Shown here: one piece after another, positions 13,821 through 22,616 of the stretch | How positions within the stretch are numbered: position 1 is the stretch's first letter | Layout of the letters: the number at the start of each line of letters is the position of its first letter | Assembly: GCF_030717995.2 (NCBI RefSeq) | Contig: NZ_CP157743.1 | Span: 3,932,501-3,996,500 of the forward strand | Length of the DNA stretch: 64,000 nt | Direction of reading: 5' to 3' | From: Methylomarinum sp. Ch1-1 | GTDB taxonomy: Bacteria; Pseudomonadota; Gammaproteobacteria; Methylococcales; Methylomonadaceae | Program-made: the position numbers and the translations under genes | The notes under the pieces: model-generated | What the model was told of the DNA's origin: nothing | Seen by the model: the letters and a program-made list of their open reading frames with translations, nothing else | Database searches by the model: none

Positions 13821-15340
13821 TCACGAGTCTCGCTCCTGACTTTGCTCCGCCATGCCGGCGTCGAGCATTTCTTCCATACGCTCGCAATAGGCCTTCAAGA
13901 CCTTGATGCGCGCATAATATTTATCATTACCCTCGACCATTAGCCATGGGGCCTGATGGGTGCTGGTCCTGGCTATCATTTCGTTAACCGCTCGCTGGTA
14001 GTCATCCCATTTTTCCCGATTACGATAATCCTCTTCGGTTATTTTATGCTTTTTATAGCTGATTTGCTCACGCTCCTTAAATCGTTTTAGCTGTTCTTCC
14101 TGGTCGATATGCAGCCAGAATTTCAACAGCACGATGCCATGCTCAACCAAGGCTTCTTCAAAATTAACGATTTCCGCATAAGCCCGCTGCCACTCGCGCC
14201 GACCGGCAAAGCCTTCCACCCGCTCCACCAGAACCCGACCGTACCAGCTGCGATCATAAATCGTCACTTGCCCGGCGCGCGGAATATGACGCCAAAAACG
14301 CCAGAGATAATGATGCGCGCGTTCCTCGTCGGTCGGTGCGGCAACCGGTATGACCTGATAATTTCTAGCATCCATAGCATGGGTCAAACGCCTGATTGCG
14401 CCGCCCTTGCCGGCGGCATCCCAGCCCTCAAACACCAATATACTGGATCGTTTCAATTGATGGGCCTGACGCACCAGCTTGTTGATCCGCCCCTGATACT
14501 TCGCCAACTGTTGTCTATAGGTTTTTTTATCCAGTTTTAAGGTTAAATCCAGCGAATCGAGCAAATTTTGCTGACTGACATGATTAACCCTTGGCCAGTC
14601 AGCCTCATTGTTCAGTTGTTTTAAAACCTGGCGCTGGGCAATATGCTGCTCGATACGATTCAGGACATGCTGTCCGACGGTCAGACTGCTATAACGGATA
14701 TCGGAGCCTTCCACGATCAGCCAAGGCGCCGAGGCTGTGCTGGTTTCTGTCAAGACTCGTTCGGCGACCGCGACAAATTGGTCATAGAGGGCTAGATGTT
14801 TTATATCTTTTTCGGTCACCCGCCATCTCGTTTCCGGTTTTTTTTGCAAGGCTTTCAGGCGTTTTTTCTGGGCGTCCTTTTTTAAATGCAGCCAGCATTT
14901 GATGATTAACGCCCCATCATCGCTCAACAACTGCTCTAACTGCCTGATATGCATTAATTGCACCTGCAGCTGATCATCTCCAGTTTCACCGTAGACTCGT
15001 TGGGCCAGGGGTTCGCTATACCAGGAGCCGACGTAAATACCGATGCTCCCCTTCCCCGGCAAGGTGCGCCAGAAACGCCAGAATTTGGGCCTCTCCCTCT
15101 CTTCATCGGAAGGCTCGGCAAAGGCGATGGTGCGCATATAGCGCGGGTCCATCCATTCATTTAAGAGGTTGATCACCTCCCCTTACCGCCACCGTCGACG
15201 CCTGAAATTAAGATAATGACCGGAAAATCACAGTCCTGCAGTTTTTGTTGAGCTAGCAACAATTGCGTCCGCAATAACGAAACTTTTTCCCGGTAAATCG
15301 ACTTTTTAACGGTATGTCCTAACTCAGCAATTTCAAACAC
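13821..15340 (-). pseudogene. Polyphosphate:AMP phosphotransferase (two-domain PPK2), frameshifted
   Basis: The gene should encode about 506 residues: a GTG start at 15340 sits behind a strong AAGGAGG (about 15345-15351) and gives FEIAELGHTVKK..., the usual PAP opening. Reading proceeds to GVDGGGKG in the first Walker A, then meets TGA because a C-run on the + strand (15179-15182) has four bases where five would keep the frame. The downstream frame resumes at once with VINLLNEWMDPRYMRT and runs to 13821. The second PPK2 domain is intact (FEGWDAAGKGGAIRRL, YDRSWYGRVLVERVEGF). The family phosphorylates AMP to ADP with polyphosphate. It heads a tight unit with tatT-dctPQM. A sequencing error, a true mutation or frameshifting are all possible. 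Confidence 0.85.
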
Positions 15341-15559: not shown

Positions 15560-15748
15560 ATGGCTGAAGAAAAACAAAGCAATACTTACACCATCGTTGT
15601 TGCTGTATCTGCAGTAATTATGATCGCATTCGTAATGATGCTGAAAGGCAGAGAAACAGAGCATTTGAAAATGTCTGCTCAAACAACGCCAGAAGCTGAA
15701 GCTCAAGTTCTGGGAAAAGCTAGAGACTTCAACAACGTTATGGAATAA
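15560..15748 (+). CDS. Small single-span membrane protein, unknown
   Basis: A 62-residue protein from ATG 15560, 9 bp behind an AAGAGG ribosome site (15545-15550); an ATG two codons earlier (15554) would be too close. It has a short acidic N-terminus (MAEEKQSN), one strong membrane helix (about residues 10-29, VVAVSAVIMIAFVMML) and a 33-residue polar tail. No family is recognised. A very strong intrinsic terminator follows at 15754-15786. Flanks on both sides are non-coding, so it is an isolated monocistronic gene. Codon use and the terminator suggest it is real and well expressed. Confidence 0.65.
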   Translation: MAEEKQSNTYTIVVAVSAVIMIAFVMMLKGRETEHLKMSAQTTPEAEAQVLGKARDFNNVME

Positions 15749-15786: not shown

Positions 15787-16194
15787 CTCCTCCCCCCAAT
15801 GTTTCCAGCCAGATTAGCCATTCATAGACTTGGCAAATTTAGCCACCGTTAATCCCCGCTACCCGGCCATTTAGTTTTTCCCCAGCTAGTTATAGTTCGT
15901 TTCCTCTCGGTTTTTATCCCTTGCCTATGTTTAAACTTCGACTGTTATTAGGAAGGTCGTGTTTCAGGCGTAAAATTACCTTCCTGCAATTGACCGTCTT
16001 AAACGGCTAACGTAGGTGCTATACTTTCCCGCCGACACTTTTTACAACCCGAGTTCGGGGTCAAAATTTGTCCAACGGTATGAAATAGATGAGTATCAGA
16101 CATTGAACCGAATCCTTTATAGCAAGTCTGAGCTTAAAACTATTCGACACTGGTACTGATATCAAATCAGTCTTTTTACTCATAAGGAGAAGTT
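15787..16194. other. Non-coding leader region before the RiPP precursor
   Basis: No gene was found in these 408 bp. An AACCCGAGTTCGGGGTC motif at about 16047-16063 resembles small motifs at 9411, 20511 and 30044. A good ribosome site (AAGGAG, 16182-16188) precedes the ATG at 16195. No promoter was assigned with confidence. Confidence 0.5.
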
Positions 16195-16557
16195 ATGAAA
16201 AAATCCAAAAACACCCCTTTTGCCATTGCATTAGGAACCTCTTTAGTTTCAGGACTGTCCGCAAATGTGGCCCAAGCCGACGCGTCGATCGATGCGAACA
16301 GCAATCCATTTGCCCTGACTGAACTGTCATCCGGTTACATGCAGACCGCCCAATCCGATCAAGAACAAAGCGGTTCGATGAAGATGAAAGACGGCTCTTG
16401 CGGCGAAGGCAAATGCGGCGGCGCGATGATGCAAGGAAATCAGGAAAAAGCAGCCGAAGGCAAATGCGCCGGCAATAAACCGATGCCTTCCGACAAAACG
16501 AAAGACATGGAAGGCAAATGCGGCGAAGGCAAATGCGGCGGTTCAATGAAAAAATAA
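16195..16557 (+). CDS. EGKC-motif RiPP metallophore precursor (HvfA/bufferin type)
   Basis: A 120-residue precursor with a Sec signal peptide (MKKSKNTPFAIALG..., cleavage near AQA-DA at about 27-29), a linker to about residue 62, and a Gly/Lys/Met-rich C-terminus. The C-terminal half has four EGKC motifs (GEGKCGGAM, AEGKCAGNK, MEGKCGE, GEGKCGGSM) and ends in KK. Tandem EGKC motifs behind a signal peptide define HvfA/bufferin precursors, whose cysteines are converted to copper-binding heterocycles by DUF692 (MNIO) enzymes with a DUF2063 partner. No DUF692 or DUF2063 gene lies in the window, so this is an orphan precursor. ATG follows AAGGAG by 6 bp. Copper storage or buffering is a family-based inference. 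Confidence 0.8.
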   Translation: MKKSKNTPFAIALGTSLVSGLSANVAQADASIDANSNPFALTELSSGYMQTAQSDQEQSGSMKMKDGSCGEGKCGGAMMQGNQEKAAEGKCAGNKPMPSDKTKDMEGKCGEGKCGGSMKK

Positions 16558-16639: not shown

Positions 16640-17110
16640 CCTATACTCTGCCGGCCAATCCGCCTGGATACGCACAACGGCCAATTTTGCCCCCGGAGGC
16701 GGGGTTTGGTGGCTTGCTTCGCGAAGCCACCCTACGAATCCGCCCATGTTGGCTACGTTGGCATCGCAACCGTCGATCGGAACCGCCGTGGATTCGCCGC
16801 CAGGCAATCCGCCTGGATACGCACAATGCCAATTTTGCTCCGGAGGCGGGGTTTGGTGGCTTGCTTCGCGAAGCCACCCTACGAATCCGTCCACGTTGGC
16901 TACGTTGGCGTCGCAACCGTCGGGAACCCGCCGTGGATTCGCCGCCAGGCAATCCACCTGGATACGCACAACGGCCAATTTTGCCTCGGAGGCGGGGTTT
17001 GGTGGCTTGCTTCGCGAAGCCACCCTACGAATCCGTCCACGTTGGCTACGTTGGCGTCGCAACCGTCGGGGACCCGCCGTGGATTCGCCGCCAGGCAATC
17101 CGCCTGGATG
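16640..17110. repeat. Hairpin array, inverted orientation, T-A stem variant
   Basis: Three to four copies of the hairpin unit in reverse orientation with a period of about 150 bp (CCTGGATACGCACAA landmarks near 16663, 16814 and 16958). Here the major hairpin reads GGTGGCTTGCTTCGCGAAGCCACC, not GGCGGCTT...AAGCCGCC as elsewhere, so both stem strands have changed together. It separates the RiPP precursor gene from hemF; long frames across it are artefacts of the repeat. Confidence 0.9.
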
Positions 17111-18338: not shown

Positions 18339-18375
18339 TAATACATCCTTGGCAGCTAATGGCATCCTGCCTCAC

Positions 18376-18504
18376 GCGGCACTTGCATGTCCCTGTGCGG
18401 CGGCCGCTAGCGATGTCCTATCTCGCGCGGCACTTGCACTTCCTTGTGCGGCGGCCGCTAGCGATGTCCTATCTCGCGCGGCACTTGCACTTCCTTGTGC
18501 GGCG
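18376..18504. repeat. 51-bp tandem repeat
   Basis: The motif GCGGCACTTGC recurs at 18376, 18427 and 18478, an exact 51-bp step, about 2.6 copies. Copies 2 and 3 are nearly identical (CTTCCTTGTGCGGCG), copy 1 differs slightly. It contains NotI/NheI-like palindromes (GCGGCCGCTAGC). No coding support. Confidence 0.85.
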
Positions 18505-20567: not shown

Positions 20568-22616
20568 GATCGGGTCAGAGGGAGCCGCAGCTCCCGTCTG
20601 CCCACAGAACCGTGCGTACGGGTCCGTACACGGCTCCTCACGTAAGACGAATCCATTGAGATACCTCAAACCAATGCGCTAACTGTCGGTCGGATCGTAT
20701 TTCCTGTCCCATCAGGTTGATAAACCAACTGTTCGGATAGGCTCTCGTCACCGCTCGGGTTGCGGAAAGCGCCCACCGTTTCTTGTTGGAAAAGACCGTC
20801 TGGGCGGCTTGCTTTCGCGGTACGCCCCGTTTGACCAGGTTTCGATACAGATGCTGTTTCCGCTTCTGCTGACTCACCAGCCTCGCTCGTAATCGTCGCC
20901 GGATATGGGCTTCGATTTTCCTCAGCTGGGACGGGTATTGGGTCAAGCTGTAGTAGTTGGCCCAGCCCACGTACCACTGATTAAGGTCGGCCAGGGTGTG
21001 ATTCAGCGTCTGATGGGTGCCTCGCGGCGTTAAGGCTTTGACTTTACTCATGGCCGTTTGCAGGGCTTTGTGCGCAATCGCTACTGTCCTGTCGACCACG
21101 GTAAAGCCTAAGAACTTTACCGCATCGGATTTAGCCACTTGGCTTTTCTCCCGGTTCACCTTCAGTTTCAGCTTGTTTTCGATGAATTGGCTGACTTTCT
21201 CCATCACTCGCTCCGCCGCCTTTTGCGACCCAACGAAAATGTTGCAGTCATCGGCAAACCGACAAAATTCCAGTCCGCGCTTTTCCAATTCCTGATCCAG
21301 TTCGTCCAGAACAATGTTGCTCAGCAAGGGCTTAACGGTCCGCCCTGCATCGCACCTTCCTTGTTGGGGTTGACGACGCCGTTGATCATCACGCCACTGC
21401 GCAGCATCATGCCGATCAAGCGCAAGATGCGTTTGTCGGCGATCCGTTGCCCCATCCGGCCAATCAGCCGGTCGTGGTGAATACGATCGAAGAACTTCGA
21501 TAAGTCGATGTCCACCACATAGGGTTTACCGCTTTCCACGATCCGTTGCGCCGCTTGCACCGCTTGGTGTTGACTCCGTCCCGGACGAAAGCCATAGCTG
21601 TGCCCTGAAAAATGCGGATCAAAGATCGGTTCCAGCAACAATTTCAGGGTCGTCTGTACCACACGATCCCGCACCGTCGGTATGCCGAGCAGACGTACGC
21701 CCTTGCCGCCAGGCTTAGGTATTTCCACTCGGCGAACCGGCGAGGGTTGGTAAGTCCAATCCTGCAATTCCTGTTGCAGACGACTTAGCTCTTCGTCTAA
21801 ACGGGCTTCAAAGTCGGCTATCGTGACCCCGTCAATGCCGGGTTTGCCTTTGTTCTTCTTCACCTGTTCAAATCCCGCACTCAAATACAACGTTGAGCAC
21901 AGTTGGTCAAAGAGTCTTGGTTCCTCAATCAATCGGTCATGTTCGTTCATTTCACTTTTTCTCTCTCTTGCAATGGCCTTTCTTCAATCTCGCGCAATCG
22001 ATTCGTTCACTGTTTACGACGCGAATAGTCGATTGCTCCTGTCAGGCTGATCTCAGACCCTCAGTTTATAATCAACGGCCATGGCCGCTTACGTGTTCCA
22101 CCCTTCACCTCCAACTTCCTGTCACTGGTTCGATGTTTTTCCCTCAGCTATGTCACCATAACCTCATCGGCATCGAACTTTACGATTACTACGGCTTCAT
22201 CTGCAGACCCTCGGTTCATCACGTCAGCATTACTGCTGCGCTTAGGGCTTAAGGTGTCGCAGTTACACCGACCCGAAGCCGACGGCCCTTCACTGGGTAA
22301 GATAGTCAACTTTATCTCGGTCCACCTACCTTCAATACAACAGCAAGTTACGGTGAGAATATCGGACTTCGGTGGACGCGGGCACCTCATCCTCTTGCTG
22401 CCGCCTTACGAAGGTTCACTCTCGTTTAGGTGACCGATTCGGCTAGAGCTTCTTTCAGATTCCGCATTGGCTCTCGGTAACCGTGCTTCCCTGTTGGGTA
22501 GCTACCGGGAGTTTCTTTGGACACCCTTGCTTTCGCCTACTTCTTCCCTTCTCACAGGGCAAAGGCTGGACTTTCACCAGCTAGCTGACTACCATGCCAG
22601 TCACACCGCTTCACTT
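20568..22616 (-). mobile_element. Group II intron
   Basis: A ribozyme-type intron on the minus strand. The 5' end is placed at GTGTG (22612-22616), matching the GUGYG consensus, followed by about 660 bp of structured RNA before the maturase gene. Downstream of the maturase is a clear domain V (GAGCCGTGTACGG...CGTACGCACGGTTC, about 20604-20635) and then a domain VI-like hairpin. The 3' boundary is placed near 20568 but is uncertain. The intron lies after the TSUP gene in non-coding DNA, not inside a recognisable host gene. Confidence 0.85.
20638..21950 (-). pseudogene. ltrA: Group II intron reverse transcriptase/maturase, frameshifted
   Basis: Two abutting frames together form one RT of about 437 residues. 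The N-terminal part (21950 to 21321) has RT blocks 0-4, including KPGIDGVTI, YGFRPGRSQHQAV and VVDIDLSKFFDRIHHD, and breaks after MQGGPLSP. The C-terminal part (21327 to 20638) continues LLSNIVLDELDQEL and has the intact catalytic CRFADDCNIF. The break is explained by one missing base in a short C run near 21330. The X/maturase region is present (NQWYVGWANYYSLT); no HNH endonuclease domain is seen. Activity requires the frame to be restored. Confidence 0.85.

Follow-up and report, generated by a model that had tools for sequence, protein, structure and literature searches.

The gene described here encodes an unlinked precursor of the HvfA type that would be modified in trans by the type-A HvfB/HvfC pair of the same genome, exported by the Sec pathway and bind Cu(I) in the periplasm; we put the probability of this reading at roughly 0.7. 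Sequence comparison establishes the family, the presence of both enzyme pairs, the single clade formed by such precursors, their leader class, purifying selection and the retention of type-A enzymes without a detected intact linked EGKC precursor in Methyloprofundus-type genomes; recognition in trans, chemistry, export and copper binding of this peptide are inferred. The window is the whole stretch of 64 kb that was analyzed (C2:3932501-3996500, on a contig of 4.44 Mb).

The window gene encodes a member of the HvfA family

The open reading frame begins with ATG and contains, within 120 amino acids, five cysteines and the four EGKC motifs that the first-pass annotation had read in it (Table 1). 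The protein matches the NCBIfam domain model NF050137 ('HvfA family', a repeated EGKCG / KCGExKCG motif) with 33.8 bits (cut-off 19.5, E 1.9e-8). With 38.8 bits it misses the cut-off of 95 of the HvfA equivalog NF050188, as do both linked precursors of the host (21.4 and 23.7 bits). According to the domain model it is therefore a family member and not HvfA itself. In a Pfam search with E-values up to 1 no match was obtained, DUF2282 of the bufferin Buf1 included. The annotation had proposed an HvfA/bufferin-type precursor and named a profile search as the way to disprove it: an EGKC/HvfA-type precursor is borne out by NF050137. Nine homologues from other genomes share 57-78% identity with the window precursor and have invariant CGEG-CG and EG-CAGNK blocks, so the reading frame is not a product of chance.

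Table 1. Positions of the precursor gene, its sequence blocks and adjoining elements in the window.
Feature	Position	Strand	Basis or status
Gene of the stand-alone HvfA-family EGKC precursor (120 aa)	16195..16557	+	ORF; NF050137 above cut-off; in 30-row clade
AAGGAG, ribosome-binding-site-like, 5 bases upstream of ATG	16184..16189	+	read directly
Signal-peptide-like leader: KK..., hydrophobic core, AQA	16195..16278	+	by eye; type-A-like leader HMM score
Conserved NPFALTELSSGYMQTA motif past the presumed cleavage site, common to type-A linked precursors	16303..16350	+	
Cys core C69, C74, C91, C109, C114 in SCGEGKCG / EGKCAGNKP / EGKCGEGKCG blocks	16399..16542	+	
62-aa single-pass membrane-like protein, RETEHL motif, upstream neighbour	15560..15748	+	neighbour by position
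Tandem array, 146-bp unit, 3.1 copies, behind the precursor	16656..17109	.	neighbour by position

Two HvfB/HvfC-type enzyme pairs are encoded elsewhere on the contig

Within the 64-kb window neither an MNIO (DUF692) nor a DUF2063 gene was found, and tblastn with the MNIO and DUF2063 proteins of the host gave no window match at E 1e-5; at its own locus the precursor is an orphan, as had been claimed. PF05114 (MNIO) and PF09836 (DUF2063) have two matches each in the host genome (4.77 Mb, three contigs), all of them outside the window. They belong to two precursor-MNIO-DUF2063 operons on the same contig, at C2:857-860 kb and at C2:2885-2888 kb, the latter with an additional DoxX gene. We call the MNIO that lies beside nth in many relatives type A and the one accompanied by DoxX type B; the two enzymes of the host are 56% identical to each other. 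With the HvfB/HvfC equivalog models, scores of 439.7 and 407.5 bits (NF003818, cut-off 360) and of 315.4 and 210.7 bits (NF050145, cut-off 142) were obtained, and the NCBIfam cut-offs were passed for HvfB by both MNIOs, for HvfC by both DUF2063 proteins and for HvfX by the DoxX protein. In contig coordinates the type-A pair is about 3.1 Mb away from the window precursor, which is the third paralogue of the HvfA-type precursors and the unlinked one.

The description of the precursor as lacking its maturation enzymes thus did not survive the search of the remaining genome that the annotation itself had recommended, since two pairs exist, each beside a precursor of its own. The annotation had left open whether the peptide is matured in trans or acts unmodified; given two MNIO and DUF2063 pairs in the genome, maturation in trans appears to be favoured. 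A methanotroph as host, which it had considered as a condition, agrees with a pmoA-type AMO match of 426.5 bits in the same genome.

Thirty unlinked precursors form one conserved clade

Family genomes with a completeness of at least 95% (111, drawn evenly from a larger group) were searched with a profile of ten unlinked homologues, and the matches were compared by hand with the MNIO positions in the same genomes. A homologue was regarded as unlinked if it reached at least 103 bits and was located off any MNIO match (at least 85 kb away where both were on the same contig). Among the matches listed, unlinked homologues occur in 32 of the 111 genomes, and in six genera none of the sampled members is without one (g1 4/4, g3 5/5, g7 2/2, g9 2/2, g12 11/11 and g20 8/8). 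The names in the records are used loosely and sometimes depart from the genus codes; g12 corresponds to Methylomonas, g20 comprises Methyloprofundus and Bathymodiolus symbionts, and among the members of g1 and g3 are the symbiont of Gigantopelta aegis and a sponge symbiont, respectively. Four g29 matches of 117-128 bits were MNIO-linked. Further unlinked EGKC precursors beyond the clade set were found in G002, G013, G028, G030, G049 and G098. In draft genomes, genes counted as unlinked may be linked across contig ends.

Four of five genus-mates (G001, G003, G004 and G005) possess a single MNIO, of type A and beside a type-A precursor, plus an unlinked precursor. In the fifth, G002, which is 85% complete, three MNIOs were found, and its EGKC precursors are on other contigs only.

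Thirty unlinked sequences, which represent 28 of the 32 orphan-bearing genomes together with two genus-mates from beyond the set of 111, G002 and G003, group as one clade among the type-A precursors (SH-aLRT 99, quick search), with type B outside; the tree has 98 rows and 108 columns, and many of its forks are not resolved. Neither the tree nor the leader comparison below contains G034 and G092, missed by the ORF filter, or G063 and G122, whose loci were not fetched. Of the type-A linked rows, L224, L233, L234 and L249 were left out of the tree, and L224, by eye another kind of precursor, also out of the leader comparison. The tree includes the long precursors of the Methyloprofundus-type genomes and none of the other further unlinked ones. 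Choosing the orphan set by likeness to an orphan profile favours a single clade; the high-scoring linked g29 sequence L075 still falls outside.

Of the 435 pairs in the clade, 73 gave a usable dS; over these pairs, which are not independent of each other, the median dN/dS was 0.21 (range 0.016-0.442), and the window precursor gave 0.163 with its nearest relative. These values indicate that the 30-row clade is under purifying selection.

Leaders of the unlinked precursors are of the type-A class

Among the linked precursors two classes of leader can be told apart, and these track the type-A and type-B MNIOs. A type-A HMM was built from 33 leaders of genera without a clade member (31 loci, with L065/L234 and L077/L233 doubled) and a type-B HMM from 19 leaders; for the type-B MNIO stretches L228, which starts 230 bases before the MNIO, and L229 no adjacent precursor was found. 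All 30 unlinked leaders scored higher with the type-A model (median 64.7 bits, 48.2-74.3) than with the type-B model (median 21.6, 12.6-32.5). As controls, 11 of 11 untrained type-A linked leaders were assigned to type A and none of the 19 type-B leaders, which were training rows; 30 shuffled leaders had a median of about 1 bit and a maximum of 8.4, and 14 of them scored higher with the type-A model. The PF...GY block was kept in all 30 unlinked sequences. This likeness of the leaders could reflect plain common ancestry.

For HvfA, removal of the signal sequence is reported to lower the number of modifications from about five to under one (PMC13419390). FonBC, according to PMC13097082, tolerated all of the individual alanine substitutions ahead of the core, so the leader is possibly non-selective. 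The same source describes two EGKCG repeats as the requirement of FonBC, with EGKCA accepted. The stand-alone precursor has at least two repeats, and its middle EGKCA block agrees with the tolerance for alanine after the cysteine.

It is rather unlikely that the stand-alone precursor is never modified and acts as a thiol-based, metallothionein-like metal buffer in the periplasm. A linked MNIO match is indeed missing in all 32 orphan-bearing genomes, for which all counted MNIO matches were listed, and G011 contains the orphan without any MNIO match. But G011 is a 98%-complete draft in 180 contigs, its genus-mate G061 has a linked precursor with an MNIO, and the other 31 of the 32 genomes do contain an MNIO match. 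The conserved leader class and the PF...GY block, which would be needless for mere export, also argue against an unmodified peptide, as does the EGK-C-G/A context, which suits what a known HvfB-type enzyme tolerates.

Maturation in trans by the type-B pair, or by both pairs, is still less probable. The type-B pair qualifies as HvfB/HvfC in NCBIfam as well, but the preference of the orphan leaders for the type-A model is uniform, and in some orphan-bearing genomes, such as G001 and G005, the only MNIO match is of type A.

Neighbours of the stand-alone gene change between genera

The repeat array and hemF (PF01218, 455 bits) that had been named as neighbours of the window precursor are both present downstream; upstream are a PPK2-family gene and the gene of the 62-aa protein. 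The latter protein is matched in 109 of 111 family genomes, and its gene lies within 0.8 kb of the precursor in 9 of 9 g1 and g3 genomes of the 111-genome set and elsewhere in the other four genera; its neighbours vary at the other places looked at. In Pfam and NCBIfam the protein shows sub-threshold likenesses only, SecE/SecG among them. As it is close to the precursor in two genera only, it was rejected as a conserved partner. By genus, the stand-alone locus has the PPK2 and/or the 62-aa gene, and hemF in some. In Methylomonas the precursor is located between def and iscA/cysteine desulfurase, and in Methyloprofundus behind mgtE and before mraZ. Because the neighbours change with the genus, we do not claim a function from them.

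Between 15750 and 16195 no sigma-70-type match was found, and promoter-like sites numbered 2 against 2.5 expected. A promoter element common to orphan and linked genes was not visible by eye.

Some other elements of this region were recorded. The PPK2-family gene (13821-15340, minus strand) is split into the ORFs 13821-15176 and 15173-15340; the relative L114 has a single protein in their place, so a frameshift is likely. A second tandem array (18371-18504, 51-bp unit, 2.6 copies) is located just behind hemF, and an ORF at 20638-21327 (minus strand) resembles by eye the C-terminal portion of a reverse transcriptase/maturase from a group II intron.

That the window gene is a decaying operon relic left by rearrangement, as the differing loci and the adjoining tandem array might suggest, is highly improbable and was set aside in view of the intact ORF, the low dN/dS and the presence throughout the sampled members of six genera as a single clade apart from the linked genes.

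Methyloprofundus-type genomes keep type-A enzymes without a detected linked EGKC substrate

The set contains eight genomes of the Methyloprofundus type. In none of the eight was an intact EGKC precursor detected next to the type-A MNIO and DUF2063 genes, and in seven of them the leader motif was absent from all six frames of the fetched stretch (7-14 kb). Upstream of some of these MNIOs there are small Cys-bearing ORFs without the leader, so another kind of precursor is possible there. G120, also among the eight, additionally carries a type-B operon that includes a precursor. In G072, a draft matched to the Bathymodiolus brooksi symbiont, a relic (L200:4822-5007, plus strand) consists of a type-A leader just upstream of the MNIO and a stop before any cysteine; as the genome is a draft, this broken precursor may be a misassembly.

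The MNIO itself is still under constraint. For the Methyloprofundus-type MNIO, dN/dS was 0.037-0.057 in the 5 usable of 28 pairs. All nine histidines that are invariant in 12 linked MNIOs are kept in the eight enzymes, and among the 40 invariant H/D/E/N columns there are three, each of them acidic, that are altered in one to three of the eight.

G098, assembled in two contigs, contains one MNIO match and four unlinked precursors at distances of 89 kb to 2.35 Mb in contig coordinates. In short EGKC precursors of this genome (L202:4947-5258, minus strand; L203:5445-5732, plus strand) and of G087 (L210:5768-6076, minus strand) the signal peptide ends, by eye, in a lipobox-like GC, which suggests lipid-anchored variants. 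For the two of G098 the type-A leader HMM gave 40.6 and 33.2 bits and the type-B HMM 3.4 and 7.9 bits. The combination of kept enzymes without a detected linked EGKC substrate and kept unlinked substrates is the best comparative evidence here for a putative action in trans.

Proposed pathway and relation to known systems

After synthesis of the precursor, the type-A HvfB/HvfC pair would recognize the leader in the cytoplasm and convert the cysteines of the EGKC(G/A) motifs to 5-thiooxazoles. The Sec machinery would then export the peptide and remove the signal peptide, and in the periplasm it would bind Cu(I) as a buffer or sponge. Of the chemistries named in the first-pass annotation, thiooxazole (5-thiooxazole) is the current assignment for the family, and the oxazolone/thioamide formulation has since been revised according to PMC13419390 and PMC13097082, as far as the available texts go. 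The EGKC relative MmrA-C of Microbulbifer is reported as undetected under added copper (PMC12538549).

The precursor resembles those of HvfABCX and FonABC (HvfA/oxazolin and fontiphorin, EGKCG captophorin precursors) in its signal-peptide-like start, the repeated EGKC(G) and the NF050137 domain, and cognate-type HvfB and HvfC equivalogs are encoded in the genome. Unlike these systems, it lies away from the enzymes and below the HvfA equivalog cut-off, and the stand-alone precursors have a conserved middle block EGKCAGNKP and, in several genera including that of the window, a spacer before the NPF motif. Methanobactin (MbnA/MbnB/MbnC) is likewise an MNIO-made copper peptide known from methanotrophs, but the MNIOs of the host reach 57.9 and 28.8 bits with TIGR04159 (cut-off 325) and do not pass as MbnB-type, and MbnA has a typical leader peptide and not a Sec signal (PMC12452194).

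Antoine et al. (2025; PMC12452194) describe stand-alone bufferin and Buf_EGKCG precursors, which also have no linked MNIO. That work states that the products of such genes may either be substrates of MNIOs encoded at a different locus or stay unmodified, and that a position next to MNIO and DUF2063 is usual and not required for HvfA-family EGKCG precursors; stand-alone precursors and the idea of action in trans are thus already in print. The available text does not name a conserved stand-alone clade or a methanotroph case, and its main text contains 'methylo' 0 times and 'methanotroph' once, in the reference list. In the open-licence full-text literature we recognized no paper describing the clade. 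What appears to be new is the conserved clade of trans-encoded precursors, together with the dispersal seen across Methyloprofundus-type genomes.

A separate observation concerns G049, of the same order, in which an EGKC region is fused to a multicopper-oxidase/cupredoxin-type domain (L064:6531-7361, minus strand; Cu-oxidase_2 PF07731, 26.4 bits). The 14.9-kb stretch L064 gave no match to the MNIO or DUF2063 probes of the host, and 'Cupredoxin' is absent from the main text of PMC12452194.

Tentatively, and with odds somewhat below even, we propose that in one branch of the gammaproteobacterial methanotrophs the HvfA system has become dispersed, with a single type-A HvfB/HvfC pair serving several unlinked precursors with different cores, possibly lipid-anchored in Methyloprofundus-type genomes. 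The stand-alone clade would act permanently as a copper sponge under regulation of its own, and the enzymes would outlive their own linked precursor.

PMC12452194 poses, and leaves as a question, the modification of unlinked precursors by MNIO enzymes encoded at a distance. G001 and G005, each with one MNIO, one linked and one conserved unlinked precursor, and G098, where one MNIO match goes with four unlinked precursors, are clean cases for it. If our main reading is true, mining by gene neighbourhood undercounts the products of the MNIO enzyme class, and copper-dependent methanotrophs would possess a separate peptide for handling copper, distinct from methanobactin.
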